From a virus: DNA of 53,711 nt. The DNA lies in IMG/VR virus record IMGVR_UViG_3300037488_000489, positions 1 through 53,711 of that record, one strand, 5' to 3'. The position numbers and the translations under genes were made by a program. Positions 312-48,066 of the stretch are shown here, one piece after another; the stretch's first letter is position 1, and each line of letters opens with the position of its first letter. The notes under the pieces are model-generated. The model searched no databases. It was not told the origin of the DNA and saw only the letters and a list, made by a program, of their open reading frames with translations.

Positions 312-3300
312 ATGAAAGATCAAATCTTAAAGATCGCTAAAGTAAAATCTGAAAAGGAATTCTATAAGAAGTATCCTACAGAAGAAGCATTCATGAAAGC
401 TCATGGTAAAGCATTTAAAAAAGCTGCCATGGGTGCTAAGATGGTAGAAACTCAATTAGACCAATTAACTGACTTTGGTAATCCTCCTATAGCACAGGTA
501 GGTACAATGATTGGTGGTAATAACCTAAACCCTAAGCTTAAACCTGTGGGCTTCAATGATTTAATGACTGGAGCAAAAGCTACTAATGCTGGCATTAGTA
601 AAGAGGAACAAATGAGGCAAGATAACCTGGCTGCTCTTGAAGTAAAAAATGCTCCTGATCAAGAAGTTGATGGTGGGTTTGCAAAAACATTATCTGGAGT
701 TGCTAATCAATTTCTTGGAGAAGGTGGAGGTGGGGATGTTGGAGATATTGTAAATGATTTACCTATTCATAGATATGGTGGTGATTTATATAAATACCAA
801 GGCGGTGGTGGATTAACTGGTCTTGGTAATTCTATTGGAAGTGCTTTCCAAGGACAAGGTGGTCTTGGTAATGGTTTAATGAATCTATTTGGAAATAAAG
901 GAGGTGGTCAACAGATGATTAAAGATAGTCAGGCTATGTTTAAAGGTTCTGGAATGGCTGGATTAAAAGGTGGATTAAAAACACTTGGTACGTCTGAAGG
1001 ATTAAAAACTGCTGGTAAGGCTGCTGGTATAGGAGTGTTAAATGCTGCTCCTCAAATCTTACAAGGTATTGGTCAAATTAAAGAACAAAAGCAAGCAATT
1101 AAACAAGCTGATCAAACTGCTCAAATATCAAACGTTACAGCATTAGCTGCTGAGTCACAACCTCAATTACAAAAACGTAGATATGCAAGACCAGAAGATT
1201 CTTTAGTACAACCTGGACAATTAGGTAATCCTCAAGGTGCTGGTACAAACTTCTTGGCTCAGAACGGTAGATCTATTGGAGGTAACTCAACAGAGATTCA
1301 AAATACATATAGTAATCCTTTAGATATATATTCAGATCTTGGATTTACTCCACTGAATGATAATATTGTTAAACAATATCAAGTGGGTGGTAAAGTTAAG
1401 TTTGATCCAAGCACTTATAAACGTAGACCTGATGCAGAGTCGTCTGATATAAAATCTTCATCTAATTTATTATTATCAGCTGGAGCTGGAGGAGCTAACT
1501 CAAATGATTTTAGTAACTATTCTACAACTATTAATAAGTATGCTAATATGGGGAATGATACCTCATATATGTCTACACGTAACACTCCTGCAGGAACTGA
1601 AGAATTCTTTCATAATACAAATCAAGGAAATCCTATTTCTCAATTACGTAGAGGTAAGGAATTTATTAATTTAAGTCCTGATCAAGTAAATGCATATAAG
1701 CAAAAAGTATTAACAGGAACAGGTGGATTTGAACAAGGTGGTAATTTACCTACAGCAGAGTTTGGTGATTACTTCCAAGACTCAGGTCAAGCTTCCATTG
1801 GTAAAGGTGTAGGTTCTGCAATTGGTAGTGCATTTGGACCAGTTGGTGGTATGATTGGTGGATTCTTAGGTGGTGTTGCTGGTAACTTATTAGGTGGTGC
1901 TAAAGATGCTAATCAACTTGCTAACTTCCAAGATACAACAAAGAAAAATACAGAAAGAGCTGCTTGGGCACAAGGTGCTCAAAATATACAATCTACATAT
2001 TCTAGTTTTATGGAAGATGGTGGATATATGAATCCTGAATACAATCCACAAATGATTGCTAAGTTTGGTGATTATTCTATGGATCAATTATTAGCACCTC
2101 CTTATGATGCTGATATGTTACGTGCTGGTGGTCATTTAAAAGAGTACACTCCGCCTAGTGCAGAAGCTATGTTTACAGACAGAGCTCAATATGGTAAATG
2201 GATGAAGAGAACTAATGACCCAGGTGTAGAAGTTGCACCTACTGGTGGTGCTATGGCAAATCCAAGATTGAGTGATATTAAAGCTTATACACAAATGAAT
2301 GCTACTGATACAAATAGAAATGGTAGAAGTAATTATAATCAAGACTTTACAAGTGCTCAATACACTAAAGACTATTATGATAATCAACCTTCTCAAGAAG
2401 TTTACTCATATGGTAGAGATAACGGTAATAAGTTTTCAGAGTTTACTAGAATGGCAACAGAAGGACAGCCTGCTGTTAATGAGTTACATAGAACAGAAGA
2501 ACGTAGACCATTTCTTAATTTGATTGGTAAGAAACAAATTATGGATAGATATGATATGTTAAATGAGAAGAAAGCTCAAGGATACATGCAACAAATGAAT
2601 AATGCTATGCCTGGCGGATTACCAGGATATACAGCTCCTAATATGGAGTATGGTGGACAGCTGGCTATGGGTGGTGACTTACAAGTACATCGTGGTACAG
2701 CAGAAACTATGTCTTACAATCCATACTTACCAGGAGATGGAGAAACAGTTATGTTCAGAGGACCTTCTCATGACAATGGTGGTATACCAGTTAGTTATGG
2801 TCAGAATGGTGTAGAGGTAGAAGGTGGCGAACCAGCTATTAAGTTACAAGATGGTGGTCAAGAAGAGAACTTAGTTGTATTTGGTAACATGGTTATTCCT
2901 AAGTATGGTGTAGCTGAAATAGGTGATGACAAAGCTAAGGGTAAGAAGTTCAAAAACTATATTGCAGACCTTAGCAGAACAGAAGCTAAACAAAACAAAA
3001 TTATAGATAAATCAACCAAGTTAGTTAATAGCCTTAAAAATGATAATCCATTTGATCAATTATCAATGAACGCTAGTCGTGCTAACTTATTAGGAGCTAA
3101 TATGAAATTAAAAGATATTGCTGACAAAAAGCAAAGAGCAGCTGTAGTACAAAATGCTATTCTTGACACAGCTAAAGAGTTTGGTGTAGAAAGCGATGGT
3201 TTGGCTAAAGGTAAAATCAAAGCTATTAAAGATCCATTAATTGGTAAGAATGGTTTAAAGTTAAAGAAAGCTCAAAGTGGAGACAAGGTGGTAACATGGC

Positions 3301-4337
3301 ATCCAGACTGGGATGATGTATATAACAATGATGCACCAGATGTGTTAAATGCAGCAGATCTTGAGATGATTAAAAGAGGTATGAGCAAACCAGGGTTTAT
3401 GGGACAAGGTGCAACTGATTTACAAGAAGTGGTTGTTACAGCAAAACGTCCAAAGTTAAAAGGACCACTAGATATTATTCCAATGGAAACTAATCTTCGT
3501 AAATTGCCATTACCTCCAGTAACTTTCTCTGGTAAACCTCTTGATTTACAAATGGCTAAAGGTAAGAAGAAGAAAGGTAAGTTTGATTGGGAAATGTTAG
3601 CTAAAACTTTAGCTTCTGGTTTAGGTGATTACTTTAGACCTAGTACTAACAATCCATTAGATGGCAGTCAATTAATGGGTGAGATGTACGCACTGGGGAA
3701 TAATCAACAAGATCCTGTATATGCTCAAACATATCAGCCAATGTTGGATAATATTTATGACATTTCATTACAAGATCAAATTAACTCTATAGATTCTCAA
3801 GCTAGAGCTGCTATTAGAGCTGCTGGTGATAATCCTTCTGCACAGGCTTACATTATGAGTCAAGCTGCTGAACTTAAGAATAAGACATTGGGTGAGCAGA
3901 TGAGAATCAATCAAGCTAATAGAGCTCAAGTGTTCCAGGGTAATAGAGCAGCAATTAATGATTCTGTATTAAAGAATATAGGAATCCTTGATAATCAACA
4001 AGTTAGACAATCAACAGCTAAGTCTAGAACTAAAGAGCAAGCTATTGAAGCCCTTAACTCTATCTCTGATAAGATTGCTAGAAACAAACTTGAGACTAGA
4101 AATATAAATACTATGGAGAATTTGTATGGTTATAGATTTGGTCAAAATGATCGTGTGTATAATGCAAACAATCCTTACTTCTTTAACAGTCCTATAGTTG
4201 GTTCAATGAACGTTGGTGGCCTTAGTGAATATGAAAAAGCTAAAGCTATCACTAATGCTTATGAAAAGAAAACTAAGGGTTTAGGTAAGGAAGAAAGTAG
4301 AAACGGTTCTATTGTAAAAGCTCTTAAAAACATCTAA
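312..4337 (+). CDS. Giant Gly-rich probable virion protein (1341 aa)
   Basis: No enzyme domain is recognised. The N-terminal half alternates low-complexity Gly-rich hydrophobic stretches (for example around residues 170-200 and 500-530, of the GxxxG type) with hydrophilic segments. Short Gly-Gly motifs recur along the chain: RYGGDLYKY, YQVGGKVKF, EQGGNLP, MEDGGYM, RAGGHLKEY, MEYGGQLAMGGDL, LQDGGQE. Around residues 815-870 is a compact segment containing SHDNGGI and VEVEGGE, which I associate with large structural proteins of uncultured Bacteroidota phages. Lys-rich KKAQSGDK occurs near residue 986. The gene leads a run of giant genes in one orientation and is followed by an 86-nt gap with a promoter. 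The Gly-rich segments could be membrane-active if the protein is ejected. The virion role is inferred from size, context and composition, not from a diagnostic motif. Confidence 0.6.
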   Translation: MKDQILKIAKVKSEKEFYKKYPTEEAFMKAHGKAFKKAAMGAKMVETQLDQLTDFGNPPIAQVGTMIGGNNLNPKLKPVGFNDLMTGAKATNAGISKEEQMRQDNLAALEVKNAPDQEVDGGFAKTLSGVANQFLGEGGGGDVGDIVNDLPIHRYGGDLYKYQGGGGLTGLGNSIGSAFQGQGGLGNGLMNLFGNKGGGQQMIKDSQAMFKGSGMAGLKGGLKTLGTSEGLKTAGKAAGIGVLNAAPQILQGIGQIKEQKQAIKQADQTAQISNVTALAAESQPQLQKRRYARPEDSLVQPGQLGNPQGAGTNFLAQNGRSIGGNSTEIQNTYSNPLDIYSDLGFTPLNDNIVKQYQVGGKVKFDPSTYKRRPDAESSDIKSSSNLLLSAGAGGANSNDFSNYSTTINKYANMGNDTSYMSTRNTPAGTEEFFHNTNQGNPISQLRRGKEFINLSPDQVNAYKQKVLTGTGGFEQGGNLPTAEFGDYFQDSGQASIGKGVGSAIGSAFGPVGGMIGGFLGGVAGNLLGGAKDANQLANFQDTTKKNTERAAWAQGAQNIQSTYSSFMEDGGYMNPEYNPQMIAKFGDYSMDQLLAPPYDADMLRAGGHLKEYTPPSAEAMFTDRAQYGKWMKRTNDPGVEVAPTGGAMANPRLSDIKAYTQMNATDTNRNGRSNYNQDFTSAQYTKDYYDNQPSQEVYSYGRDNGNKFSEFTRMATEGQPAVNELHRTEERRPFLNLIGKKQIMDRYDMLNEKKAQGYMQQMNNAMPGGLPGYTAPNMEYGGQLAMGGDLQVHRGTAETMSYNPYLPGDGETVMFRGPSHDNGGIPVSYGQNGVEVEGGEPAIKLQDGGQEENLVVFGNMVIPKYGVAEIGDDKAKGKKFKNYIADLSRTEAKQNKIIDKSTKLVNSLKNDNPFDQLSMNASRANLLGANMKLKDIADKKQRAAVVQNAILDTAKEFGVESDGLAKGKIKAIKDPLIGKNGLKLKKAQSGDKVVTWHPDWDDVYNNDAPDVLNAADLEMIKRGMSKPGFMGQGATDLQEVVVTAKRPKLKGPLDIIPMETNLRKLPLPPVTFSGKPLDLQMAKGKKKKGKFDWEMLAKTLASGLGDYFRPSTNNPLDGSQLMGEMYALGNNQQDPVYAQTYQPMLDNIYDISLQDQINSIDSQARAAIRAAGDNPSAQAYIMSQAAELKNKTLGEQMRINQANRAQVFQGNRAAINDSVLKNIGILDNQQVRQSTAKSRTKEQAIEALNSISDKIARNKLETRNINTMENLYGYRFGQNDRVYNANNPYFFNSPIVGSMNVGGLSEYEKAKAITNAYEKKTKGLGKEESRNGSIVKALKNI

Positions 4338-22926: not shown

Positions 22927-25900
22927 ATGAACGTTACATGTTCTGCAACTCCTTGCCCAGTCATACTTAACAGCACCTGCGTATTTTACGAGGGTGCTAA
23001 TCTTGTTTATACAGGTATCAACACTAATGATTCCATTCAGACAGCTTTACAAAAAATTGATGAAGCTATTGGTAATGGAGGAGGTGGTGGAACCACTGGA
23101 ACCTCAGGTACTTCTGGTACCTCAGGATCAAATGGTTCATCTGGAACTAGCGGTGCTTCTGGATCTTCTGGAACATCTGGTGCTTCTGGATCTTCAGGTG
23201 TAAGTGGTAGCTCAGGGACTTCAGGTTCATCTGGAACACGTGGTACATCTGGTTCAAGTGGAACTAGTGGTGTAAACGGTGCTGCTGGTACATCTGGAAC
23301 TTCTGGTGCATCTGGTTCAAGTGGAACAAGTGGAACAAGTGGAGCTGCTGGATCAAGTGGAACAACTGGTACAAGTGGTACATCTGGTTCACGTGGTACT
23401 TCTGGTACGTCAGGTGTTAATGGAACAAATGGAACAAGTGGTGTGAATGGCTCAGCAGGTTCTTCAGGAACTGCTGGAAGCTCAGGCACATCAGGTATAA
23501 ATGGTACAAGTGGAACTGACGGTACAAGTGGAACAAGTGGTTCATCTGCAACAAGCGGAACCTCTGGAACAAGTGGAACGTCTGGTATAAATGGTACATC
23601 AGGATCTTCAGGAACTACAGGAACTAGTGGCACATCTGGTGTTAATGGAACTAGTGGAACTTCTGGAGAAAGTGGAACATCTGGAACAAGCGGAACTTCA
23701 GGTGAAAATGGTACATCAGGAACAACTGGTAGTGATGGAACAAGCGGAACGTCTGGAACTTCTGCAACAAGTGGTACATCAGGAACAAGTGGATCTACAG
23801 GTACAAGCGGTTCTTCAGGAACAACAGGTACATCAGGGTCTTCTGGCACTGCTGGAACAAGTGGTGTTGATGGAACATCTGGTACTTCAGGATCTGACGG
23901 TACTAGTGGAACTACTGGAACCTCAGGAACTACTGGAACCTCAGGTACTTCAGGGGAAACAGGAACTAGTGGTACTTCAGGAACATCTGCAACAAGTGGA
24001 TCTTCTGGAACTAGTGGGTCTTCTGGAATAGATGGAACAAATGGTACTAGTGGCACTACAGGTACAAGTGGTAGTTCAGGTACATCAGGAAGTGATGGTA
24101 GTAACGGAACATCTGGAACTACAGGAACAAGTGGTACAAGTGGTGAATCAGGATCAAGTGGTACAACAGGTACTTCTGGATCAAGTGGTACAAGTGGTAC
24201 AGACGGTAGTCATGGAACATCAGGATCTACAGGAACTTCAGGTTCATCTGGAATAGATGGTACTAGTGGAACAAGCGGTACTTCTGGAGCACAAGGTGAT
24301 ACATATAGAACAACATCTACTGATAGCTTTACATTAGGTAACTCTGGTACATTAACAGTTGATACAGGTTTAGCATACTCAGTGGCTCAATCAATAATTG
24401 TGGTTTATGATGCTAATAACTTCCAAGAGTGTGAGGTTACTGCTTATAATCCAGCAACAGGTCAATTAAGTTTTGGTGCCCCTTTTAGAACAGTGGGTTC
24501 AGGCACATATACAAGTTGGATAGTAAACCTTGATGGTGCATCAGGTGGTGATGGTAGCTCAGGTACTAGTGGAACATCTGGAATAGATGGTTCTTCTGGC
24601 ACTTCAGGTACTACTGGTACTTCTGGAACTTCTGGTACTGATGGCTCATCAGGCACTACTGGGACTTCAGGCACAAGTGGCACGTCAGGATCTAGTGGAA
24701 CAACTGGAACTAGTGGTTCTAGTGGAACTTCTGGAACTTCTGGTATTGATGGTACAAATGGTACAAGTGGTACAAGTGGAAGCACTGGTACTTCAGGAAC
24801 AAGTGGTACATCAGGTTCTAGTGGTATTGATGGCACTTCAGGGACTTCAGGCTCAAGTGGTACTTCTGGTACAGACGGAACATCAGGAACTGATGGAACA
24901 TCTGGTACTGACGGTACTTCTGGAATAGATGGAACTTCAGGAACAAGTGGAGTTGACGGAACTAGTGGTACAGACGGTACAAGTGGTACAGATGGTACAT
25001 CAGGAATTGATGGAACTTCTGGCACTTCTGGTTCATCTGGTACTAGTGGAACAACAGGTACAAGTGGAACTTCAGCAACTAGTGGCACCTCAGGAACTTC
25101 TGGTTCTTCAGGAACTACTGGCACCTCAGGTACAAGTGGAACTTCTGGTTCATCAGGTACGTCAGGTGTGGATGGTACATCAGGCTCTAGTGGAACAGCT
25201 GGTACTTCAGGAACTTCTGGTATAGACGGTACATCAGGATCTAGTGGTACATCTGGAACATCTGGCACTTCTGGAACAAGTGGTGTAGATGGAACTAGTG
25301 GAACCTCAGGAACATCAGGAACTAGTGGCACAAGTGGAACTAGCGGTACGTCTGGTACTAGTGGTACAACAGGTACATCTGGTAGCTCTACATTATTATA
25401 TGGTACAAGTTCTAATACAATTACACTTCCTCCTGCAGAAGCTACAACTACAAGCACAACTACAACAGCTGCTCCTGTAGCATATGTAATTGATAATGCA
25501 GCTACAGGTACTTCTGGAGAAGCTTGTGTTGGTTCAACTACAACAAGTACTGTTTATGCTTTACCTGGATATACTGTTCCTATGGTAGGAATGATTTTTT
25601 ATAATAGCCCAAGTTTAACAACACCGTTTGTTGGTTCAGTGGGATGGAGAAAATTAACTAAAGATGGTACTGATTATGCAGTAGAAGTAGATGTTAATGG
25701 AGAACTTACAAACTATATAACTTGTCCTTCTGAATATCCTGTTACTTTTTATTTAAAGAAAAAGGCAGCAACAACAGAAGGATCTGTTAAAATAATGTAT
25801 AGTGTAAATGCTGGATCAACATGGAATGAATGGATTGAACTTTCAAATAGTTTTGTTACTGTTAATAGTTATTCTGGTAGTAGTGGATTATTCATTACTG

Positions 25901-26103
25901 CTGGTTCTAGTTTATTAATTGGTTTATTAGATGGTTCTTCAAATAATTTAAACTTTGGAAAAATTGTAGGTAATCCACCAACAGATTGGGATTCTTATTG
26001 TGGTATTAGTATACCGTATAATGTTGGCCTTATAACATCAACTACTGATTTATATCTAAATCTAGATGTACAAGGTCCTTCGTTTGCAATATGTGGATTA
26101 TAA
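22927..26103 (+). CDS. Collagen-like fibre protein 1 (1058 aa)
   Basis: Residues 1-50 form a short N-terminal module ending in a helix (TNDSIQTALQKIDEAI), of a kind used to attach fibres to a tail or capsid. Then come uninterrupted Gly-X-Y triplets in which X and Y are nearly all Thr or Ser, with occasional Asp, Asn, Ala, Ile, Val or Glu (about residues 55-456 and 538-820). An 80-residue globular insert (about 457-538; TYRTTSTDSFTLG ... SWIVNLDG) interrupts them. The C-terminus (about 822-1058) has a Thr-rich linker (TTTSTTTTAAP) followed by beta-rich sequence with a few Cys, likely a receptor-binding tip. Gly-X-Y repeats form trimeric collagen-like rods in phage fibres. Proline is nearly absent, so stability must come from another source, possibly glycosylation of Thr and Ser. 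The fibre role is well supported; the receptor is unknown. Confidence 0.8.
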   Translation: MNVTCSATPCPVILNSTCVFYEGANLVYTGINTNDSIQTALQKIDEAIGNGGGGGTTGTSGTSGTSGSNGSSGTSGASGSSGTSGASGSSGVSGSSGTSGSSGTRGTSGSSGTSGVNGAAGTSGTSGASGSSGTSGTSGAAGSSGTTGTSGTSGSRGTSGTSGVNGTNGTSGVNGSAGSSGTAGSSGTSGINGTSGTDGTSGTSGSSATSGTSGTSGTSGINGTSGSSGTTGTSGTSGVNGTSGTSGESGTSGTSGTSGENGTSGTTGSDGTSGTSGTSATSGTSGTSGSTGTSGSSGTTGTSGSSGTAGTSGVDGTSGTSGSDGTSGTTGTSGTTGTSGTSGETGTSGTSGTSATSGSSGTSGSSGIDGTNGTSGTTGTSGSSGTSGSDGSNGTSGTTGTSGTSGESGSSGTTGTSGSSGTSGTDGSHGTSGSTGTSGSSGIDGTSGTSGTSGAQGDTYRTTSTDSFTLGNSGTLTVDTGLAYSVAQSIIVVYDANNFQECEVTAYNPATGQLSFGAPFRTVGSGTYTSWIVNLDGASGGDGSSGTSGTSGIDGSSGTSGTTGTSGTSGTDGSSGTTGTSGTSGTSGSSGTTGTSGSSGTSGTSGIDGTNGTSGTSGSTGTSGTSGTSGSSGIDGTSGTSGSSGTSGTDGTSGTDGTSGTDGTSGIDGTSGTSGVDGTSGTDGTSGTDGTSGIDGTSGTSGSSGTSGTTGTSGTSATSGTSGTSGSSGTTGTSGTSGTSGSSGTSGVDGTSGSSGTAGTSGTSGIDGTSGSSGTSGTSGTSGTSGVDGTSGTSGTSGTSGTSGTSGTSGTSGTTGTSGSSTLLYGTSSNTITLPPAEATTTSTTTTAAPVAYVIDNAATGTSGEACVGSTTTSTVYALPGYTVPMVGMIFYNSPSLTTPFVGSVGWRKLTKDGTDYAVEVDVNGELTNYITCPSEYPVTFYLKKKAATTEGSVKIMYSVNAGSTWNEWIELSNSFVTVNSYSGSSGLFITAGSSLLIGLLDGSSNNLNFGKIVGNPPTDWDSYCGISIPYNVGLITSTTDLYLNLDVQGPSFAICGL
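23089..24294 (+). repeat. Gly-Thr/Ser-Ser/Thr triplet repeat, fibre 1, block A
   Basis: About 400 codons in a 9-nt-related periodicity encode Gly at every third residue. Synonymous codons are strongly mixed (GGA/GGT; ACA/ACT/ACC; AGT/TCT/TCA), so the protein repeats more exactly than the DNA does. Confidence 0.9.
24295..24543 (+). repeat. Globular insert module, copy in fibre 1
   Basis: This encodes about 82 residues that break the collagen repeat. The same module recurs at 26644-26892 in fibre 2, sharing VAQSI(I/V)(V/I), NNFQECEV, YNPATG and TVGSGTYTSWIVNLDGASG. A more divergent relative forms the N-terminus of fibre 2. Confidence 0.8.
24544..25389 (+). repeat. Gly-X-Y triplet repeat, fibre 1, block B
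   Basis: A second collagen-like block of about 280 codons. It differs from block A by many GTDGTSG and GIDGTSG units in its middle part (about 24870-25020), a local tandem expansion with Asp at the X position. Confidence 0.9.
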
Positions 26104-26133
26104 AAATAAAATAAAAATATAAAATCAATATAA

Positions 26134-29100
26134 ATGGCTTATTCTAACATAACAATAACTACTCAAACAGGTCTATCTTTTATCACTGGACAATTTATCC
26201 AGCTAATAGCAGATAGTACTGACTATATTTTTGGTCAGGTAGTTTCTTACAATCCTGCTACAGGAGAGTTGGTTTTTACACCAACCAAATCTGTAGGTAG
26301 TGGTAGTTATAACCTTTGGGAAGTAATTGCTTCTGGTTCTCCTGGTGATGATGGTACATCTGGTACTTCAGGTATTAGTGGTAGTGGTGGAACAGGTGGT
26401 ACTTCTGGTACTTCTGGCACCTCTGGTATTGATGGAACAAATGGAACATCTGGCTCATCTGGTACAAGTGGTATAGATGGCACAAGTGGAACTAGTGCAG
26501 TTGATGGTACCTCAGGTACAAGTGGGACAGCAGGAACTGGTGGAACTAGTGGTACTTCAGGCACCACTGGTACTAGTGGTATTGATGGAACAAGTGGAAC
26601 TGATGGTAGTAATGGTACTTCTGGTACTAGCGGCACTTCAGGACAAACAGGTGATCAATTTGCAACAACTTCTACTACATCATTTACATTAGGTACTAAT
26701 GGAGCCATTGTTGTAGGAACACAACTTGCCTATACAGTAGCTCAATCTATTGTAATAGCTTATGATATAAACAACTTCCAAGAATGTGAAGTGGTATCTT
26801 ATAACCCAGCTACTGGGGGATTGATATTTGGCTCTCCAACTAGAACAGTTGGTAGTGGTACATATACAAGCTGGATTGTTAACTTAGACGGTGCTTCTGG
26901 AGGAGATGGTTCTTCTGGAACATCTGGCACAACTGGTACATCTGGTACATCTGGGACTAGTGGCTCTTCTGGAACTGCTGGAACAACAGGTACAAGTGGA
27001 TCAAGTGGAACATCTGGAACACACGGAACTAGTGGTACATCTGCAATTGATGGTACTAGCGGAACAAGTGGCACAACTGGAACTAGTGGAACGGCTGGTA
27101 CAAGTGGAACATCCGCTATTGATGGAACATCTGGTACAACTGGAACCTCAGGAACTAGTGGTACAACAGGTACAAGCGGTACATCTGGCACAAGTGGAAC
27201 ATCTGCTACCAATGGTACAGGTGGTACAAGTGGATCAAGTGGATCAAGTGGTACATCAGGAATTGATGGTACCAATGGTACAAGTGGAACTACAGGAACA
27301 AGTGGAACCTCAGGATCTTCTGCAACTAGTGGAACATCTGGTACAACAGGTACATCTGGAACTAGTGGAACAAGCGGCTCTTCAGGAACTGCTGGTACTA
27401 CTGGTACTTCAGGTACTTCTGCAATAGATGGAACAAGTGGTACATCTGGCACTACTGGTACGTCTGGTAGTGGTGGTACATCAGGTACTTCTGGAACAAC
27501 TGGTATTGATGGTACTAACGGAACTTCTGGTACAACAGGTACTAGTGGTACGTCTGGATCAACAGGTACTTCTGGCACTAGTGGAACTACTGGTGTAGAT
27601 GGAACAAGTGGTACAACTGGAACAAGTGGATCTTCAGGTACAAGTGCTACTGATGGTACAAGTGGAACTTCAGGTACTACTGGAACTTCAGGCAGTTCAG
27701 GATCTACTGGTACCAGTGGTACATCAGGTACTACAGGAACAAGTGGTACTTCTGCAACTGACGGAACTAGTGGAACTAGTGGCACATCAGGTAGCTCAGG
27801 TACAACTGGTACCTCTGGTACATCAGCCACAAGTGGTACAAGTGGAACTAGTGGTTCTACAGGAACTAGTGGTTCATCAGGAACTACAGGAACAAGTGGG
27901 TCTAGTGGAACTGCTGGTACAACTGGTACATCTGGTACTTCAGGTATCAATGGTATAGCTGGTGGTCAAGTGTATTGGATGAATTTATCTAGTGACACAT
28001 CATCTGCTTTTGGTTCTCCTACATATAAGAAACTTTCTTATGATCCTTCTGGTGGTGCACAACAAACTACAACAGTAAGTGTTGCAGCTAATGCAACTGC
28101 TACAATAGCAACCTTTGCTACAGACTCAAATGTTCCTAACTTGACAAGTATACCTGGTGGTAACTGGGGATTCACAGGTCACTTTTTAACAAATAGTGCT
28201 AATGCAGCTTGGAATATTTATTATGAGCTTTGGAAATATACTACAGGTGGCGTTTCTACATTATTAGGTACAACTAATAGTGTATTAGTTACTTTAGATA
28301 ATGTTGTAGTACAACAAATTTATGCTGACTCTTTTATAGCAGCACAATCATTAAACGCAACAGATAGACTTTTTATAAAGGTTATTGCTACTAATACAAG
28401 CAATCAATCACATAATATAATCTTCTACACAGAGGGTACAACCTTTTATTCATACGTACAGACAACTTTCACTTCTCCTTCTGGAACTAGTGGTACAGGT
28501 GGTACATCAGGAACCTCAGGTTCTTCTGGTACAACTGGCACTTCTGGAACCTCTGGAACAAGTGGTAGCTCTGGAACTTCAGGTTCAACTGGTACAAGTG
28601 GTAGCTCTGGAACAACTGGTACATCAGGTTCTTCTGGTTCATCTGGCTCATCTGCAACTTCTGGTACTTCAGGTACCTCAGGTTCAAGTGGTATTGATGG
28701 AACTAGTGGTTCATCAGGTACAACAGGTACATCAGGTAGCTCAGGAACAACTGGAACAAGTGGTACTGCAGGTACTACAGGTACGTCAGGTACATCAGGA
28801 ACCAACGGTACTGGTGGTACGTCAGGTACTACTGGTACATCAGGCTCTTCAGGCTCTTCAGGTACAAATGGTACAGGTGGTACATCTGGTACAAATGGTA
28901 CAGGAGGAACTTCTGGTACAACTGGTACCTCAGGTACAACTGGTACAAGTGGTTCATCTGGTACAACAGGAACAAGTGGAACTAGTGGAATAAACGGTAC
29001 ATCAGGTACAACAGGTACCTCTGGCACCTCTGGTGTTAATGGATCAAATGGTACTTCTGGAACCACAGGAACTAGCGGTTCTTCTGGCACTGCTGGTACG

Positions 29101-31899
29101 TCAGGTATAAATGGTACATCTGGTACCACTGGTACAAGTGGTACTACTGGTACCTCTGGTACCTCTGGAGTAAATGGTTCAAACGGTACCTCTGGTACTA
29201 CAGGAACAAGTGGTACCTCTGGAGCTGCTGGTAGTAATGGTACTTCAGGCTCTTCTGGTGCAGCTGGTAGCAATGGTACTTCTGGATCTAGTGGTATTAA
29301 TGTTGGTTCTAGTGCTGTTATTATTCTTGGAGATGGTGCATTATCTTCTGTAAGATGTGGAGCTGGTAATACAGCAACAGGAAACTGTAGTTCTGTAGTA
29401 GGAGGTCAAAATAATAATGCTACTGGAGAATATTCATTTGTTGGGGGTGGTAATAGCAATGGAGCTTCTGGAACATCTGGAGTGGTAGCTGGTGGTAGCA
29501 ATAACACTGCTAATGGATCCTTTTCAGCAATACTAGGAGGTTCAGGTAATACTGCAATGGGAGCATATTCTGGTATATTTGGATGTAATTTAACAAACAG
29601 TTTATCATGTTCATTCATGGCTAACTGCTTTGTACAACCTAATTTAAGTAATGCTGCAATAGGTGGATGTGCTGTATGTGCAGGACCTAGTGGTGAATTG
29701 ATTGCTTACACAGCTGGTGGTGGTGGAGGTAGTGTAATGGTTGCTGGTAGTGGTGTTTGTTCAATTGTTGGTAATGGATTTAGTAACACAGCAAGCGGAT
29801 ATTGTTCTAGTGCTTTAAGTGGTCTTCAGAATGCTAGTTCTAGCTTTGGATCAGTTATTACTGGTGGTGGATTTAATAGTAACTCTGGAATGTATTCATT
29901 TATTGGAGGAGGTTTCTTTAACTCTGTAATTTCTGGAAGCTGTTCAGTTGTTGCTGGGGGTGGTAACAACTGTGTTTGTTCATCTTATTCAACAATATCT
30001 GGTGGTGTATGTAACAAAATACTTGCAAATACAAACTGTTCTACAATTAGTGGTGGTGCATGTAATATTATTTGTGATAATTCTATTGGTAATTTAATTG
30101 CTGGTGGTAAGTCTAACACTGTTAGTACTTATGCCAACTGTAATGCGATTGGAGGCGGTGAGGCCAACATGATTGGAACAGGTGCAACACATGGTGTAAT
30201 TGGTGGTGGTTCTTTTAATAGCACTGGTAATTACTCAGGCAACAGTACTATATCTGGAGGATTTATGAATAACACTGGTAGTAATGGTACTTCAGGTACT
30301 ATATCTGGAGGAAGCATGAATACTATTAGTGGATATGTAACTGGTGCAACTATAACTGGAGGACAGAGCAATACTGCCTCTGCAAATTTTGCAACTATAT
30401 CTGGATGTAGTATAATAAATTCATTAGCATGTACACACATGGTTAATGAGTTAGCAATCACTTCATTTTCTCCATACGTTGGAATGGGCTGTAGTATAAG
30501 CTTTGATGCATCTGGTAAATTATGTTTAACTGCTGGTGGCGGTGGTGGTTCAAGCATCATGGTTTTAGGAATGGGAGCTGGTTCCACAGAAAGATGTGGT
30601 AACTTTAACACGACAATGGGTAATTGTGCTGCTACTTTAAGTGGTTATTTTAACAACGCTATGGGAGCAACTTCTACAATTGCTGGTGGTGCTAATAATA
30701 ACAATGGTGCAGCTCTTTCATTTATTGGAGGTGGATTTAATAATTTTACTGCTAGTAATTATCCTTTTAATAATACTGGGATGACAATTGGCGGTGGTAA
30801 TAGTAATAAAGTGTGCGTTAGTTATGGAACAATAGGTGGAGGATGGTGTAATACTATTGGAAACGCAGGAAGTTCAGGATATAGCACTATTGGTGGTGGT
30901 AGAAGTAATAATGCAAATGGAGATTTTTCAACAGTTAGTGGTGGATATACTAACACTGCTGGAGCTGAACGTACCTTTATTGGGGGTGGACAGGGCAATG
31001 GAGCATTTGCCCCAGGTGCTGGAGTTTCTAGTGGTTATTATAACAACGCTATGAACTGCCGTGCATATGTTGGTGGTGGTGAGATGAATACTGCTGGTGC
31101 ATGTCATTCTGCTGTTATAGGAGGTACCATGCATAATGCAAATGCTAATTGTTCAGCTATTATAGGAGGTGCTGGTAATAATACTAACAGTGCATATTAT
31201 GGTAGCTTCCCTGGTTATTCATTTGTTGGTGGTGGGCAAACCAATAACAACTGTGGTGGTTGGGGTTTCATTGGAGGTGGTAGTAATAATACTATAGCTG
31301 CAGGTAATATGTTTAGTAGTACTATGAAGTCAGGTATTGTTGCTGGATTTCAAAACTATATAGGTTCAGAAGCGAGTGGTATTCTTGCTGGAACATCTAA
31401 CAACGCAATAGCTGCATCTTCTGCTATTACTGGTGGTTGTTTTAACATGACTATGGGAATAGGAAGCACTGTAAGTGGATGTAGCATAATGTCAATGAAC
31501 TCATTTGTAAACCAGGCTACTTGTTTTGCTGCATCTAATCTAGGTACAGGAGGTGCAATTTGTGCAAACAGTAGTGGAACAATTGTTTTAAGTACATCTG
31601 ATGCTAGATTAAAGTGTTGCATTCAACCTGTTGGATATCAGCTTTGTGATATTAGCAAATTAGTTCCTTCATTCTATGAATTCAATAGTGCTAATAAAGC
31701 TAATGGAGAAGGAAAACAAGTAGGATTCATTGCTCAACAAGTTAAAGACGTAGTACCTGAATCAGTAAAAATGACCTTTAGTGGATACTACTCATTTGAT
31801 TCATCAAAACTAATACCTATTTTAACCAAGGGTGTACAAATTTTGATATCTTGTGTAGATTCATTAACTTTACAATTAGAAGAATTAAAGAATAAATAA
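26134..31899 (+). CDS. Fibre protein 2: collagen-like repeats, Cys-rich beta-roll and C-terminal S74 chaperone (1921 aa)
   Basis: Residues 1-68 are a beta-rich module related to the globular insert of fibre 1. Gly-X-Y blocks follow (about 70-170, 253-608 and 783-1057). They are interrupted by an insert module (about 171-253) and by a 170-residue beta-sandwich-like domain (about 609-780; VYWMNLSSD ... FYSYVQTTF) that could bind carbohydrate. Residues 1065-1815 are Gly/Asn/Cys-rich repeats such as VGGGNSN and ISGG, like the beta-roll of trimeric adhesin heads. The C-terminus is a peptidase S74 intramolecular chaperone: TSDARLK with S1822, then GFIAQQVKDVVPESV. In characterised S74 fibres the chaperone assists trimerisation and cuts itself off just before this Ser. 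It follows fibre 1 after 30 nt and likely forms a host-recognition fibre. Confidence 0.85.
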   Translation: MAYSNITITTQTGLSFITGQFIQLIADSTDYIFGQVVSYNPATGELVFTPTKSVGSGSYNLWEVIASGSPGDDGTSGTSGISGSGGTGGTSGTSGTSGIDGTNGTSGSSGTSGIDGTSGTSAVDGTSGTSGTAGTGGTSGTSGTTGTSGIDGTSGTDGSNGTSGTSGTSGQTGDQFATTSTTSFTLGTNGAIVVGTQLAYTVAQSIVIAYDINNFQECEVVSYNPATGGLIFGSPTRTVGSGTYTSWIVNLDGASGGDGSSGTSGTTGTSGTSGTSGSSGTAGTTGTSGSSGTSGTHGTSGTSAIDGTSGTSGTTGTSGTAGTSGTSAIDGTSGTTGTSGTSGTTGTSGTSGTSGTSATNGTGGTSGSSGSSGTSGIDGTNGTSGTTGTSGTSGSSATSGTSGTTGTSGTSGTSGSSGTAGTTGTSGTSAIDGTSGTSGTTGTSGSGGTSGTSGTTGIDGTNGTSGTTGTSGTSGSTGTSGTSGTTGVDGTSGTTGTSGSSGTSATDGTSGTSGTTGTSGSSGSTGTSGTSGTTGTSGTSATDGTSGTSGTSGSSGTTGTSGTSATSGTSGTSGSTGTSGSSGTTGTSGSSGTAGTTGTSGTSGINGIAGGQVYWMNLSSDTSSAFGSPTYKKLSYDPSGGAQQTTTVSVAANATATIATFATDSNVPNLTSIPGGNWGFTGHFLTNSANAAWNIYYELWKYTTGGVSTLLGTTNSVLVTLDNVVVQQIYADSFIAAQSLNATDRLFIKVIATNTSNQSHNIIFYTEGTTFYSYVQTTFTSPSGTSGTGGTSGTSGSSGTTGTSGTSGTSGSSGTSGSTGTSGSSGTTGTSGSSGSSGSSATSGTSGTSGSSGIDGTSGSSGTTGTSGSSGTTGTSGTAGTTGTSGTSGTNGTGGTSGTTGTSGSSGSSGTNGTGGTSGTNGTGGTSGTTGTSGTTGTSGSSGTTGTSGTSGINGTSGTTGTSGTSGVNGSNGTSGTTGTSGSSGTAGTSGINGTSGTTGTSGTTGTSGTSGVNGSNGTSGTTGTSGTSGAAGSNGTSGSSGAAGSNGTSGSSGINVGSSAVIILGDGALSSVRCGAGNTATGNCSSVVGGQNNNATGEYSFVGGGNSNGASGTSGVVAGGSNNTANGSFSAILGGSGNTAMGAYSGIFGCNLTNSLSCSFMANCFVQPNLSNAAIGGCAVCAGPSGELIAYTAGGGGGSVMVAGSGVCSIVGNGFSNTASGYCSSALSGLQNASSSFGSVITGGGFNSNSGMYSFIGGGFFNSVISGSCSVVAGGGNNCVCSSYSTISGGVCNKILANTNCSTISGGACNIICDNSIGNLIAGGKSNTVSTYANCNAIGGGEANMIGTGATHGVIGGGSFNSTGNYSGNSTISGGFMNNTGSNGTSGTISGGSMNTISGYVTGATITGGQSNTASANFATISGCSIINSLACTHMVNELAITSFSPYVGMGCSISFDASGKLCLTAGGGGGSSIMVLGMGAGSTERCGNFNTTMGNCAATLSGYFNNAMGATSTIAGGANNNNGAALSFIGGGFNNFTASNYPFNNTGMTIGGGNSNKVCVSYGTIGGGWCNTIGNAGSSGYSTIGGGRSNNANGDFSTVSGGYTNTAGAERTFIGGGQGNGAFAPGAGVSSGYYNNAMNCRAYVGGGEMNTAGACHSAVIGGTMHNANANCSAIIGGAGNNTNSAYYGSFPGYSFVGGGQTNNNCGGWGFIGGGSNNTIAAGNMFSSTMKSGIVAGFQNYIGSEASGILAGTSNNAIAASSAITGGCFNMTMGIGSTVSGCSIMSMNSFVNQATCFAASNLGTGGAICANSSGTIVLSTSDARLKCCIQPVGYQLCDISKLVPSFYEFNSANKANGEGKQVGFIAQQVKDVVPESVKMTFSGYYSFDSSKLIPILTKGVQILISCVDSLTLQLEELKNK
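26341..26643 (+). repeat. Gly-X-Y repeat, fibre 2, block A
   Basis: About 100 codons of collagen-like repeat follow the N-terminal module. They contain GIDGTSG, GGTGGTSG and GTSAVDG units among GTSGTSG. Confidence 0.85.
26644..26892 (+). repeat. Globular insert module, copy in fibre 2
   Basis: A homologue of 24295-24543 with the same 249-nt length and a nearly identical 3' third (TVGSGTYTSWIVNLDGASGGDGSSGTSGT). This points to duplication or recombination between the two fibre genes. Confidence 0.8.
26893..27957 (+). repeat. Gly-X-Y repeat, fibre 2, block B
   Basis: About 355 codons of Gly-Thr/Ser-Ser/Thr triplets with periodic GTTGTSG and TSAIDGTSG units. The block ends at SGINGIAGGQVYW, where the beta-sandwich-like domain begins. 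Confidence 0.9.
28482..29304 (+). repeat. Gly-X-Y repeat, fibre 2, block C
   Basis: About 274 codons of collagen-like repeat between the beta-sandwich-like domain and the beta-roll. It contains GTNGTGG and GVNGSNG units not common in the other blocks. Confidence 0.9.
29340..31595 (+). repeat. Beta-roll repeat region with three Cys-rich head modules
   Basis: Short 12-16 residue repeats with (V/I)(A/S)GG(x)NN cores are organised into three long modules. The first two end with a GC(N/S)xxNSL(S/A)C ... M connector and a Gly-rich GGGGG turn. The third ends in GCSIMSMNSF and runs into the S74 domain. Cys recurs at similar positions in each module. Confidence 0.7.
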
Positions 31900-41910: not shown

Positions 41911-42039
41911 ATGGCAAAGGCTAAAGGAGGATCATCCTCACAAAAAGTAACTTTTGGAAAACGTAAAGGTGGCAAAGCTGCTAAATCACAAGGTCCAAAA
42001 GATAAACCAGTAAAGAAATATAAAGGTCAAGGTAAGTAG
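41911..42039 (+). CDS. Small very basic protein MAKAKGG (42 aa)
   Basis: ATG at 41911, 8 nt after the previous stop, with AAAAATCAAC before it. The product is about one third Lys or Arg (KVTFGKRKGGKAAKSQGPKDKPVKKYKGQGK) and has no hydrophobic core. It resembles in composition the Lys-rich proteins at 44846-47193 and may bind DNA or RNA or neutralise packaged DNA. No family is recognised. Confidence 0.6.
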   Translation: MAKAKGGSSSQKVTFGKRKGGKAAKSQGPKDKPVKKYKGQGK

Positions 42040-43830: not shown

Positions 43831-44235
43831 ATGGCAAAATCACTGTTCCCTGATGAGATGATGAAATCAGGAGAATTAAACTTGGAAACAATAGCTGGGA
43901 AGCTTACGTATTTTCATGAGCAATTACATTTAACTCATTGGCAGACAAAAAGTTATGCTGAGCATCAAGCTCTAGGAGGATTGTATGATTATGTACATGA
44001 TTTTAAAGATGGTGTAATTGAGAAGCTTATGGGTTATACAGGTAAAAGACCTGCTCCATATAAGATAGAACCTCTTACAAATTGTACAGGGAATGAATGT
44101 GTGTCAAATCTTTTATCTTTTGCATCCTCTTTAAAAAGCTATGCTGAAGCAAATAGCTATCACGATATAGCAAATCTAGCAGATGCGTTGTCTGGTGAAG
44201 CTGCAAAAACCAAATACTTATTAACCTTGTCTTAA
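43831..44235 (+). CDS. Dps/ferritin-like four-helix protein, possibly DUF5856 (134 aa)
   Basis: The pattern LTYFHEQLHLTHWQTKSYAEHQALGGLYDYVHDFKDGVIEKLMGY resembles the first two helices of Dps-like proteins, with His and Glu residues (HEQLH, HW, EH) placed as in a ferroxidase-type site. Residues 105-134 form further helices. I recall this arrangement as DUF5856 in phages. Dps proteins bind iron or DNA and protect against oxidation. Whether the metal site is complete cannot be told by eye. The stop and the next ATG overlap as TAATG. Confidence 0.5.
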   Translation: MAKSLFPDEMMKSGELNLETIAGKLTYFHEQLHLTHWQTKSYAEHQALGGLYDYVHDFKDGVIEKLMGYTGKRPAPYKIEPLTNCTGNECVSNLLSFASSLKSYAEANSYHDIANLADALSGEAAKTKYLLTLS

Positions 44236-44845: not shown

Positions 44846-44992
44846 ATGGCTACTGCTAAGAAAAATTGGATACAAGGTGCTGTTAACCCTAAACATAAGG
44901 GTTATTGCACTCCAATGACCAAAGCTACATGCACTCCTAAAAGAAAGGCATTAGCTAAAACATTCAAGGCAATGGCTAAGAAACGTAAGTAA
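44846..44992 (+). CDS. Lys-rich small protein 1 with paired Cys (48 aa)
   Basis: MATAKKNWIQGAVNPKHKGYCTPMTKATCTPKRKALAK is very basic, with Cys21 and Cys29, and ends KAMAKKRK. Its stop overlaps the next ATG (TAATG, 44992). The start matches the MAT-x-KK openings of its neighbours. The CTPMTKATCTP repeat resembles a small metal or disulfide loop in a basic background. Function is unknown, probably nucleic-acid binding or virion internal. Confidence 0.6.
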   Translation: MATAKKNWIQGAVNPKHKGYCTPMTKATCTPKRKALAKTFKAMAKKRK

Positions 44993-45372
44993 TGGCAACT
45001 ATTAAAAAAGCTGGTCCTTGGAATCCTCAAAAAGCTACAGCTTATGTAGGTAAGGGTGTTCTTAGAACTGGTGGTAATATAACTCCTGTTCCTAATGGTC
45101 ATCTAATTAAAAAAGATGGTACATCATTAAAGGATGGTGGTAAGGTTGTTAAAGCTGGTGGTCAAACACACAAAGTGTTTAAAAAGAAAGTTGATAAAGG
45201 TATAGGCAATAAGGGGGATATAGTTGTAGATCATACAGCTGGTCCCTCTGCTGGTAAATGGGATAAAATTAATCTCACAAAGAAGTCAAGAGCTAAAACT
45301 GTTAAACAAGGTGTTGCATCTGTTAAGAAATGGCACAGAGATAATCCTAATTATAAAAGCAAAAAGAAATAG
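44992..45372 (+). CDS. Lys-rich small protein 2, MATIKKAG (126 aa)
   Basis: A basic protein opening MATIKKAGPWNPQKATAYVGKG. It contains KDGGKVVKAGGQTHKVF, a Gly-Gly motif like those of the 1341-aa protein, and a Lys/Asn-rich end (WHRDNPNYKSKKK). It is one of a tandem set with near-identical first six residues. No enzyme motif is visible. Candidate roles are DNA condensation or internal virion protein; both are inference. Confidence 0.65.
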   Translation: MATIKKAGPWNPQKATAYVGKGVLRTGGNITPVPNGHLIKKDGTSLKDGGKVVKAGGQTHKVFKKKVDKGIGNKGDIVVDHTAGPSAGKWDKINLTKKSRAKTVKQGVASVKKWHRDNPNYKSKKK

Positions 45373-45374
45373 CC

Positions 45375-45677
45375 ATGGCTACAGTTAAAAAGGTTATGAA
45401 GTCTGGTGGTAGTACTCCTGCTTGGACTCGTAAGGAAGGAAAGAATCCTGAAGGAGGATTGAATGCTAAAGGTGTAGCAAGCTATAGAGCTGCTAATCCT
45501 GGAAGTAAACTAAAAACTGCTGTTACTACTAAACCTTCTAAACTTAAAGCTGGATCTAAGGATGCTAAAAGACGTAAGTCTTTCTGTGCTAGAATGTCAG
45601 GAGTTAAAGGACCTGCAAAGAAACCTAACGGTGAACCAACAAGAAAAACGTTAGCATTAAGAAAATGGAATTGTTAA
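45375..45677 (+). CDS. DUF6321-like basic protein (100 aa)
   Basis: MATVKKVMKSGGSTPAW is followed by TRKEGKNPEGGLNAKG, RRKSFCARMSGVKGPAKKPNG and the end RKTLALRKWNC. I associate that pattern with DUF6321, short Lys-rich proteins of phages and some bacteria. Two Cys (in SFCARM and the terminal KWNC) are conserved parts of the pattern and may bind metal. Gly-Gly motifs appear at SGGS and EGGL. It starts 2 nt after the previous stop. Function of the family is unknown. Confidence 0.65.
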   Translation: MATVKKVMKSGGSTPAWTRKEGKNPEGGLNAKGVASYRAANPGSKLKTAVTTKPSKLKAGSKDAKRRKSFCARMSGVKGPAKKPNGEPTRKTLALRKWNC

Positions 45678-45689
45678 AAAAATAATATT

Positions 45690-46112
45690 ATGGCAACGGT
45701 AAAAAAAGCTGTAAAAGCTCAAAACGGTAAAGATGTCCCTAAAGGATATGTCCGTGGTGAAATGACTAATAGACTATATAAGAAAGAAGATATGGCTAAG
45801 CATGAAGCTGGAATGGCTGATGCTTTAGACAGACAAGCTGGTCTTGGTAAATATGCTCCTAAAAAGAATCCTGCTATTAAAAACAATCCTTTCAAAGAAG
45901 CGATTTCTAACTTCTCAGAAGCTGAAATAAAGAAAGCAAAAGCAGCTCCTAAAAAGAAAATGAAAGCAGGCGGTATGTTGAAACGTGCTGATGGTTCTTA
46001 TTCTAAAAGAGGATTATGGGACAACATTCGTGCTAACAAAGGCTCAGGTAAAAAACCTACAGCTGCTATGTTAAAACAAGAGAAAAAAATTAACGCTAAA
46101 ACTAAAAAATAA
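45690..46112 (+). CDS. Lys-rich small protein 4, MATVKKAVKAQNGK (140 aa)
   Basis: It opens with MATVKKAVKAQNGKDVPKGYVRGEM. The middle is charged and helical (NPFKEAISNFSEAEIKKAKAAPKKKMKAGGML), with Gly-Gly in MKAGGMLKRADGSYSKRG. The end is Lys-rich. It shares the KKAxxG-type N-terminus with the two genes that follow. The repeated start suggests a processed or targeting sequence rather than a catalytic one. Confidence 0.65.
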   Translation: MATVKKAVKAQNGKDVPKGYVRGEMTNRLYKKEDMAKHEAGMADALDRQAGLGKYAPKKNPAIKNNPFKEAISNFSEAEIKKAKAAPKKKMKAGGMLKRADGSYSKRGLWDNIRANKGSGKKPTAAMLKQEKKINAKTKK

Positions 46113-46117
46113 ATAAA

Positions 46118-46558
46118 ATGGCAACTGTTAAAAAAATGAAGAAAGCCCAAGACGGTAAATTGATAGATGCTTTTAAGAAGGCTTCAAACTCATCAGCTGT
46201 TAAAGCAAAAGAAAATTCAGCTTATACTAAAAGTTCTTTTAAAACTGCAGATTCATTACGTTCAGCATTTCCTAAATTAGGTTCAAAAGGATTAAAAGGA
46301 TTAGTAGAAGAAAGAAAATCCAATAAAGCAAAAGCTGATTCTATTGAAGGTGCTGTTGAGAAACGTATAGGTGTTCCTAGAAAGTACAACATGTATGACA
46401 ACAAGAAAAATGGCGGACCAGTTAAAAAAGCTAAATCTGGTGGTTCATTTCCTGACTTAAACAAAGATGGTAAAATCACTAAGGCTGATATTTTAAAAGG
46501 TCGTGGTGTTATTGCTAAGAAAGGTGCTATGATTAAGAAATCTATTAAAAAGAAATAA
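46118..46558 (+). CDS. Lys-rich small protein 5 with EF-hand/dockerin-like loop (146 aa)
   Basis: MATVKKMKKAQDGKLIDAFKK is followed by a Ser/Lys-rich middle. KKNGGPVKKAKSGGSFPDLNKDGKITKADIL then contains a 12-residue calcium-type loop at residues 113-124: D113, N115, D117, G118, I120, D124. Only one loop is present, whereas true EF-hand and dockerin domains have two, so calcium binding would need dimerisation or may be lost. The two Gly-Gly motifs directly before it match those of the neighbours. The end is basic (KSIKKK). Confidence 0.65.
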   Translation: MATVKKMKKAQDGKLIDAFKKASNSSAVKAKENSAYTKSSFKTADSLRSAFPKLGSKGLKGLVEERKSNKAKADSIEGAVEKRIGVPRKYNMYDNKKNGGPVKKAKSGGSFPDLNKDGKITKADILKGRGVIAKKGAMIKKSIKKK

Positions 46559-46559
46559 A

Positions 46560-47033
46560 ATGGCAACTATAAAGAAAATAAAGAAAGCTGAAGATGGGCT
46601 TAGAACAGGTCAATACAAAAGACTTGGTAGAATTGCAGAAAAGAATCCAGAAAGAGCTGAAAAAGTAGCTGGACGCATGACTAGAAAAGCTGATCGTATT
46701 GAACGTGGTAAAGATATTGCAAGCCCTCGTGCAAACCTTATGATGAACATGAATAATGCAGCAGAAAAGAGAGAGCGTCTAATGATGGACATGAGGAAAG
46801 AAAAGAATGGCGGTAAAAATAAGAAGTTTGAATCTGGTGGTAGTCTATCTGGATTAAATGCTTCTAATAAGCGTGTTGGTCCTGTAGATCCTAAAGGTGC
46901 TTATACTAAAGTTCAAAAGAGAACATTAGCAGGTGCTAAAGGTAAAGCTGTTTTAAAGAAAGATAAACAATTAGGTGCTACTAAAATGAAAAATGGTGGA
47001 CCTATGAAAAAATGCAAGTATGGCTGCAAGTAA
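46560..47033 (+). CDS. Lys-rich small protein 6 (157 aa)
   Basis: It opens MATIKKIKKAEDGLRTGQYKR, one nt after the previous stop. Residues 20-80 are helical and strongly basic with Met-rich segments (MMNMNNAAEKRERLMMDM). The second half has NGGKNKKFESGGSLSG and ends MKNGGPMKKCKYGCK. The Cys pair at the end is like those of other small members. It may be a DNA-organising or virion protein. The family is unrecognised. Confidence 0.65.
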   Translation: MATIKKIKKAEDGLRTGQYKRLGRIAEKNPERAEKVAGRMTRKADRIERGKDIASPRANLMMNMNNAAEKRERLMMDMRKEKNGGKNKKFESGGSLSGLNASNKRVGPVDPKGAYTKVQKRTLAGAKGKAVLKKDKQLGATKMKNGGPMKKCKYGCK

Positions 47034-47193
47034 TATGACTGCTGGCAAAGCTAAAAAATCAGGTGCACCTCGTAAGGCACCAAAGGTACCAGCTCCTAAA
47101 CCAATCAATGGTAATTATATGAAGGAGTCTGATACAAAGTTACAAAGAAAGAGTCCTATGCTTCCTATGAAGCAGAAGAGATTATCAAAATAA
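47020..47193 (+). CDS. Lys/Pro-rich small protein 7 (57 aa)
   Basis: The frame from ATG 47020 (MAASNMTAGKAKKSGAPRKAPKVP) runs to TAA 47191-47193 and overlaps the previous gene by 14 nt. A second in-frame ATG at 47035 gives 52 residues with no overlap, and I cannot decide between them. The product is basic and Pro-rich, ending LPMKQKRLSK. It closes the tandem cluster before the bidirectional terminator. Confidence 0.5.
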   Translation: MAASNMTAGKAKKSGAPRKAPKVPAPKPINGNYMKESDTKLQRKSPMLPMKQKRLSK

Positions 47194-47330
47194 TTGTCTT
47201 CTCCTGCATCCCATAAGAACTGCACGCTCAGGTTGATCCTCCAGTTTCTAGAACTGTGGTCTTAAAGAAGAGTCATTCCCCCCTATAGTCTCAGTATTGT
47301 AGGTCTGCTCCTTCTGGGAGTAAAAGAAAA
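47194..47330. other. Non-coding gap with higher GC and small hairpins
   Basis: About 137 nt between convergent operons, more GC-rich than its surroundings. It contains small inverted repeats, such as CCAGTT...AACTG-TGG and CTCC...GGAG (the latter about 47309-47320). I see no ORF, no tRNA-like T-arm and no promoter. It could be 3' UTR or a small RNA. Confidence 0.3.
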
Positions 47331-47351
47331 GCCCCTATTTGGGGCTTTTTT
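47327..47351. terminator. Bidirectional terminator between the Lys-rich and recA operons
   Basis: GCCCC (47331-47335) pairs with GGGGC (47341-47345) around TATTT, with four A before and six T after. The stop codon of the (-) GT31-like gene (47335-47337) lies inside the stem and loop. Confidence 0.8.
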
Positions 47352-48066
47352 CATTTAGAAGGGTATGTAAATATTTCATAAAGCTTTTATGTCTTATGTA
47401 ATGGTGTGTTACATGTTTAGATAAAAAGGTAACATCTTCTTCTGTAAGTTCAGCTAGCATCTTAGGTACATAACTATCTCCTTCTTTCCAAAGGTCATTG
47501 AAATATCTTTGAAAGGGAAACCAACCATTTAGATATAGTTTATGTAAAACATTTGAATCTAAAAACTTATCATAGATTTTTATCTGGTTCTCTTTTAACC
47601 ATGTGCCCATACAAACATCTTCATACCCATAACCTTTTACAGTCATAGGTTGACACTTCTTAATTAACTGTGGAGATATAAAATAACCACATCCTCCAGA
47701 TGGATAATCTAGTTCAGGTTCTTTTGTATATGATCCTTTCATACTATATCCATATACAGCATCTTTACTAAAGAATGTAACTACTTCTTCAAATAAAGGA
47801 ATGTTAAGTATGGCATCATCATCAATAAAGACTAACCAATCATATGCATCAAATTGGTCAGTAGTCCTAACCAGGTTGATGAAGTTGACTGTCTTCTCTT
47901 CATTGCTTTGATAATCATCTTTGTCAGAACAAGATATCTCATTAGGTCTCCCTGTGAGTTTATCTGTAAGACATACATAATCAAGAGCAGATAACCACGT
48001 TTCAAGGCAGTTATCTACTCTGTCAGTATGCTTATGACTAGTTTTTAATACAATTTTGTATTTCAT
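47335..48066 (-). CDS. Fringe/GT31-like glycosyltransferase (243 aa)
   Basis: A GT-A enzyme. DWLVFIDDDAILN has the triple-Asp D82-D83-D84 metal site of beta-1,3-galactosyltransferase/Fringe-type (GT31) proteins. PSGGCGYFIS matches the conserved GGxGY segment of that fold, and GYGYEDVCMGTWL carries the EDV base motif. These three elements are in the right order and spacing. It has no membrane anchor, unlike eukaryotic members, so it would act in the host cytoplasm. It is the last gene of the recA operon, overlapping the GroES-like start by 1 nt. Acceptor unknown. Confidence 0.75.
   Translation of the reverse strand: MKYKIVLKTSHKHTDRVDNCLETWLSALDYVCLTDKLTGRPNEISCSDKDDYQSNEEKTVNFINLVRTTDQFDAYDWLVFIDDDAILNIPLFEEVVTFFSKDAVYGYSMKGSYTKEPELDYPSGGCGYFISPQLIKKCQPMTVKGYGYEDVCMGTWLKENQIKIYDKFLDSNVLHKLYLNGWFPFQRYFNDLWKEGDSYVPKMLAELTEEDVTFLSKHVTHHYIRHKSFMKYLHTLLNEKSPK

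Follow-up and report, generated by a model that had tools for sequence, protein, structure and literature searches.

Lysine-rich modular proteins with a shared glycine junction in a crAss-like phage: a possible set of processed virion proteins

A row of small lysine-rich proteins that start alike and continue differently raises the question of what the shared sequence is for. We analysed such a row in a virus record of 117,711 bases (IMG/VR IMGVR_UViG_3300037488_000489), positions 1-53711 of which form the window, the 53,711-nucleotide stretch that carries the cluster; the remainder of the record comprises pieces L004-L007. The initial annotation had explained the pattern by a common delivery or processing tag on diverse cargo, with only the tags conserved. 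DUF6321, to which one of the proteins belongs, and internal proteins of the T4 type are already known. In a literature search that was not exhaustive, we found no description of a one-of-each modular set with Gly junctions spread over unrelated phages, and none of lysine-rich internal proteins of Bacteroidetes phages.

The cluster and the phage that carries it

The cluster consists of seven ORFs on the plus strand, in which we distinguish nine recurring modules, designated W, P, H, C, R, D, N, G and T (our own letters). As the initial annotation had noted, six tandem ORFs begin with MAT(V/I/A)KK; this start occurs in 6/7 cluster ORFs and in one (82264-82596) of 121 further ORFs selected from the 117.7-kb record. 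ORF 1 (44846..44992, 48 aa) is a stand-alone short form, MATAKK followed by module W (NWIQ...YCTPMTKATC...KALAKTFK). ORF 2 (44992..45372, 126 aa) joins MATIKK to module P (~45019-45141, with a GG inside) and module H (~45214-45369). ORF 3 (45375..45677, 100 aa, MATVKK start) is made of MATVKKVMKSGG and module C, which is DUF6321 (~45411-45674), with a KSGG junction motif immediately 5' of the module (45399..45410).

In the next three ORFs the leaders continue as KA(Q/E)(N/D)G, again as first described. ORF 4 (45690..46112, 140 aa, MATVKK start) has the leader MATVKKAVKAQNG with its junction KAQNG (45714..45728), a variable spacer, a KAGG junction and module R (~45975-46109, RGLWDNIRANKGSGKKPT). 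ORF 5 (46118..46558, 146 aa, MATVKK start) has the leader MATVKKMKKAQDG with KAQDG (46142..46156), a spacer, a KAKSGG junction (~46427-46444) and module D (~46445-46525, SFPDLNKDGKITKADILKGRGVI), an EF-hand/dockerin-like loop whose match to Dockerin_1/EF-hand is weak and below the Pfam cut-off. ORF 6 (46560..47033, 157 aa, MATIKK start) opens with the leader MATIKKIKKAEDG, which includes KAEDG (46584-46598), followed by module N (~46620-46709), an FESGG junction, module G (~46842-46991) and a C-terminal NGG and KKCKYGCK. ORF 7 (47020..47193, 57 aa) carries no tag and encodes module T (MTAGKAKKSGAPRKAPKV...), which forms the final module ORF in nearly every locus. A 42-aa lysine-rich protein ending KYKGQGK (window 41911..42039, plus strand; phrog_23735, E 0.0028) is a possible extra member; relatives have it too, and in three other phage contigs (L161, L162 and L167) it is encoded close to C genes. 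The cluster genes are real, because dN is far below dS in comparisons with relatives (for example, 0.009 vs 0.67 for W and 0.068 vs 0.61 for C). None of the small modules gave a PHROG/Pfam-type match to an enzymatic domain. A short way 5' of the cluster (window 43831-44235) lies a gene whose protein matches phrog_858, a starvation-inducible regulator, and DUF5856; directly 3', a terminator-like hairpin (aagcccc..ggggctt, then a T run; window ~47328-47352) separates converging gene sets.

Judged by its tail ring, muzzle-like, portal, terminase and capsid proteins, the genome is that of a crAss-like (Crassvirales-related) phage. PHROG matches identify terminase, portal and major capsid protein, and the tail ring protein scores 38.4 bits against Pfam CrAss_Ring_1 (cut-off 27). 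A muzzle-like tail protein of 1543 aa is akin to proteins of Cellulophaga phi4:1/phi17:2, Leptolyngbya phage Lbo-JY46 and Flavobacterium FpV4, and a protein of this type is present in 6/6 long relatives that have the cluster. A 3834-aa protein contains DFDID, a motif found in the virion RNA polymerase of crAss-like phages. An SPFH/Band-7 protein gene lies between the portal and capsid genes (L005 15224-15754). Collagen-like fibre proteins with GTSGTSG sequence are also encoded, two of great length in the window (22927-31899) and one more in L006 (4931-6727). An 862-aa open ORF at the 3' end of the record (L007 5125-7710) and the 1341-aa ORF that is the first long one in the window (312-4337) share a near-identical N-terminus, MKDQILKIAKVKSEKEFYKKYPTEEAF, and diverge after it; either the two are paralogues in tandem, or the ends of the record overlap as strain variants.

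Conserved modules and a common junction

The view that only the tags are conserved turned out to be reversed, as the bodies are conserved modules that occur in a near-constant set across relatives. The nine modules were recognised by inspecting the loci of relatives and then searched for with small profiles. We defined as near-complete any locus that has T and no fewer than six types of module, which gave 62 distinct loci. R and T were present in 62 of these, C in 61, G in 60, D in 59, P in 57 and W in 56, although the counts for T and D are biased upwards because T is part of the definition and most loci were retrieved via D. That bias does not explain how rare second copies are: R and T occur exactly once in 62/62 loci, and P has a single copy in 55 loci and two copies in 2. 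Modules H and N are optional. Linkage varies, and includes P-H, P-C, P-R, R-C, N-D-G, G-W, D-W, G-D and others. Thus about seven modules form a fixed inventory, usually with one copy of each, in which the inventory is kept and the covalent linkage is not. ORF 5 illustrates this conservation of bodies, as it has 322 relatives in IMG/VR and most among the best 80 of the 322 match only its C-terminal third, module D. Direct homologue searches among isolated phages gave no match for ORF 5 or module R, and two weak short matches for module W.

The recurring Gly-Gly motifs reported at first sight are also real, with 13 occurrences of KxGG/KxKxG in the cluster compared with 2.0 expected from shuffling, and 1 compared with 7.5 in the other 113 proteins. 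Their positions, however, are internal junctions ahead of modules rather than tags. A motif of the form K-x-(Q/K/E)-x-G(G) lies directly 5' of 160/166 embedded modules, whereas random positions in the same proteins have it in 12-26% of cases. By module, the junction is immediately ahead of 22/22 embedded copies of W, 29/29 distinct copies of C, 20/20 of G, 33/36 of R and 56/59 of D, and in two of the three R exceptions the ORF start was apparently called too far upstream. Because either form, K-x-K/Q/E-x-G or xGG, immediately precedes embedded modules, we read the leader end and the Gly-Gly motifs as one junction motif that marks module boundaries. Shuffles and random positions together exclude chance or composition as its source.

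The leader itself is maintained in homologues, with AQxG within the first 26 residues in 124/408 distinct module ORFs across relatives (10.2 expected). It clusters in the first ten residues, is nearly confined to ORFs with a spacer ahead of the module, and is found in 1/126 ORFs of 30-60 aa, 66/138 of 100-160 aa and 51/81 that are longer. The proposed motif link to the 1341-aa protein is supported by an excess of AQxG that is confined to the large cargo-type proteins of this genome: 10 vs 3.9 expected in the 1341-aa protein, 41 vs 19 in all cargo-type proteins, and 31 vs 28 in the rest.

DUF6321 in other phages and in virions

Module C connects the cluster to unrelated phages. ORF 3 is a DUF6321 member (PF19846, E 1.1e-22, 80.8 bits against a cut-off of 28.5, covering profile positions 1-72 of 72) and matches phrog_4689 with E 1.5e-29; DUF6321 matches occur in 545 phage records. 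In the T7-like phages HTVC142P, HTVC031P, S-SBP1 and KBS-P-1A, C and R are separate genes in the interval between scaffold and capsid genes, an interval that in T7-like P-SCSP2 holds C and a D-like gene. Three contigs, L165, L180 and L181, carry consecutive D-like, R and C genes. The pelagiphage-like L165 (50-1429) and L181 (2862-4225) carry islands of 6-7 consecutive tiny, very basic genes, which include modules not observed in the crAss-like set, such as LKAWGKQKWRTKSGKKSS...GKQFVKQPK. In T4-like cyanophages, C stands at the end of larger proteins, encoded mostly between the two terminase genes.

The joint ahead of embedded C differs between these lineages. In the crAss-like set, C is preceded by GG, NG or DG in 23/24 cases and by Glu in 0/24, whereas in the non-crAss set, whose IMG/VR contigs are presumed to be T4-like or T7-like, it is preceded by Glu in 35/38 (15% at random upstream positions) and by a GG-type joint in 1/38. 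Some C-module proteins start with MKTFKQYITEA, MKTYSQFIVEH, MISFKEYIFEA or MKSFKQL...ITEA, resembling MKTYQEFIAEA of T4 ipII/ipIII. Such starts occur in 4/28 C-module proteins, the four from T4-like cyanophages, compared with 8/4021 background ORFs, and one of those eight, the S-CREM2 cytidylyltransferase, has itself been detected in virions. The AlphaFold2 model of module C is of low confidence (mean pLDDT 70.7, pTM 0.38) and matched nothing in the PDB with E <0.001; by sequence it has no solved relative, the best hit being an antibody chain (E 0.11). Our non-exhaustive search found no literature on DUF6321 or the peptide GLWDNIHAKR.

Because some of the modules lie beside capsid genes in unrelated phages, the proteins are probably packed inside the phage particle, and by analogy they are probably located in the virion of this phage too. 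Mass spectrometry of purified S-CREM2 virions identified gp137, a protein with DUF6321 at its end, by 4 unique peptides, and the neighbouring gp136 by eight (PMC10665884, Table 3). The DUF6321 protein of S-SZBM1, SSZBM1_192, is not among the proteins listed for the virion of this phage (PMC9146016). The virions of S-SM1 and syn9 have also been analysed by proteomics, and the annotations of these two phages give their DUF6321 homologues no structural label, whereas the annotation of S-P4 labels its own homologue structural. These negatives weigh little because lysine-rich tryptic peptides are easily missed.

Possible processing and comparison with known systems

We consider the chances even that the late-operon modular proteins, single or chained, are carried inside the virion and have their junctions cut at head maturation. 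The cluster would then encode small, very basic proteins, as single modules or short chains, that enter the virion interior by binding either the scaffold or the packaged DNA, and that are probably ejected together with that DNA. Head maturation would cut the junctions, as the leaders of T4 internal proteins are removed, and so free about seven separate peptides. We propose cutting at the Gly junctions as the likeliest reading because the joints of C differ between lineages with different head proteases and are absent where none is expected. This comparative pattern is the strongest case for cutting, and the weakest point is the protease, as none is recognised in this genome. The prohead proteases of T4, phiKZ, 201phi2-1 and SPN3US cleave C-terminal to Glu, and in T4 the targeting sequence leads internal proteins to the head before being cleaved off (PMC5694885). 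The processing reading predicts that proteins are processed in crAss-like phage heads, of which we found no report in the literature searched.

Pfam recognised no protease among the head-region proteins (ten proteins in one scan), and we recognised no gp21-like protease in this phage. A 1519-aa cargo-type protein (L007 547-5106) has an HExxH at residue 380, between AQNG at 283 and 581. A role of its zincin domain as the universal protease is not supported, as HExxH was present in only 13/38 relatives fetched and in differing contexts. Two HExxH motifs are found in phi4:1 gp41, a protein detected by MS/MS.

We put forward more tentatively that the unrelated crAss-like, T4-like and T7-like phages share a toolkit of small basic peptides of the virion core, with separate genes where there is no head protease and polyprotein chains where there is one, and with joints that match the protease of the lineage, Gly-specific in crAss-like phages. 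If true, this would imply a new Gly-specific head-maturation protease in crAss-like phages. T7-like phages are not known to have a head protease.

It seems rather unlikely that the modules are virion-internal while the junctions remain uncut, acting merely as flexible Gly linkers and as recombination seams for shuffling. Motifs rich in Gly, Asn and Lys are typical of linkers, module shuffling needs seams, and the missing protease would be no difficulty; but the motif is specific and positioned directly at the module start, T4-like cyanophages have Glu at the corresponding position, which fits the specificity of a T4-type head protease better than it fits a flexible linker, and T7-like phages encode C and R apart from each other.

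We regard as improbable a capsid-targeting or delivery tag, in which the first ~13 residues would guide each protein to the particle interior. The strong excess of the leader at N-termini and the T4-targeting-like N-termini of some C-module proteins in T4-like cyanophages speak for it; against it, the identical motif is also internal, ahead of modules, and since the leader is missing from most copies of these modules that stand alone (30-60 aa), it is not generally required. From the tag first proposed we therefore retain a leader and junction that are shared by diverse proteins, kept in relatives and common to the large cargo-type proteins, together with an analogy to capsid targeting and processing, which we draw because C-module proteins of some T4-like cyanophages bear T4-internal-protein-like N-termini; a tag required for delivery is the part that we set aside. 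It is very improbable that the proteins act solely in the infected cell, as nucleoid, ribosome or host-takeover factors, which are commonly small and very basic: the unreported DUF6321 proteins of several virion proteomes fit this, but the late-gene position, the T7-like C and R genes between scaffold and capsid genes, the targeting-like starts and the virion-detected S-CREM2 protein do not.

The virion-protein reading offers a clue to the function of DUF6321 and of several modules without names that hundreds of marine phages carry. For Gly-Gly-type processing, a possible parallel lies in the core proteins of adenovirus and ASFV, where a viral cysteine protease cuts after GG/GX. Among phages, crAss001 carries large cargo proteins, gp45-gp50 (PMC10172136). 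This genome likewise has large cargo-type proteins, in which AQxG is enriched. In the crAss001 cargo the excess of AQxG is only weak, and small lysine-rich modules of the cluster kind were not found described for crAss001 (PMC10172136). The polyvalent proteins of phages and plasmids are multidomain and injected, and processing by zincin-like peptidases has been proposed for them (PMC5512222); the HExxH of the 1519-aa cargo protein is alike, whereas the small modules match no enzymatic domain. Module C is a clear member of the DUF6321 family of cyanophages and pelagiphages, in which the domain ends large proteins and follows Glu in T4-like phages or stands alone in T7-like ones, while here C is one of a Gly-joined set. 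T4 ipI-III and Alt, with their capsid targeting sequence and gp21 processing, are likewise small proteins with short N-terminal leaders. The leaders here, MAT(V/I/A)KK, show no similarity that we could see to the MKTYQEFIAEA of T4, and the ipII/ipIII-type start is found only on the four C-module proteins of other phages and not on the window leaders. The junctions here are Gly and not Glu, and several modules are joined in one chain.
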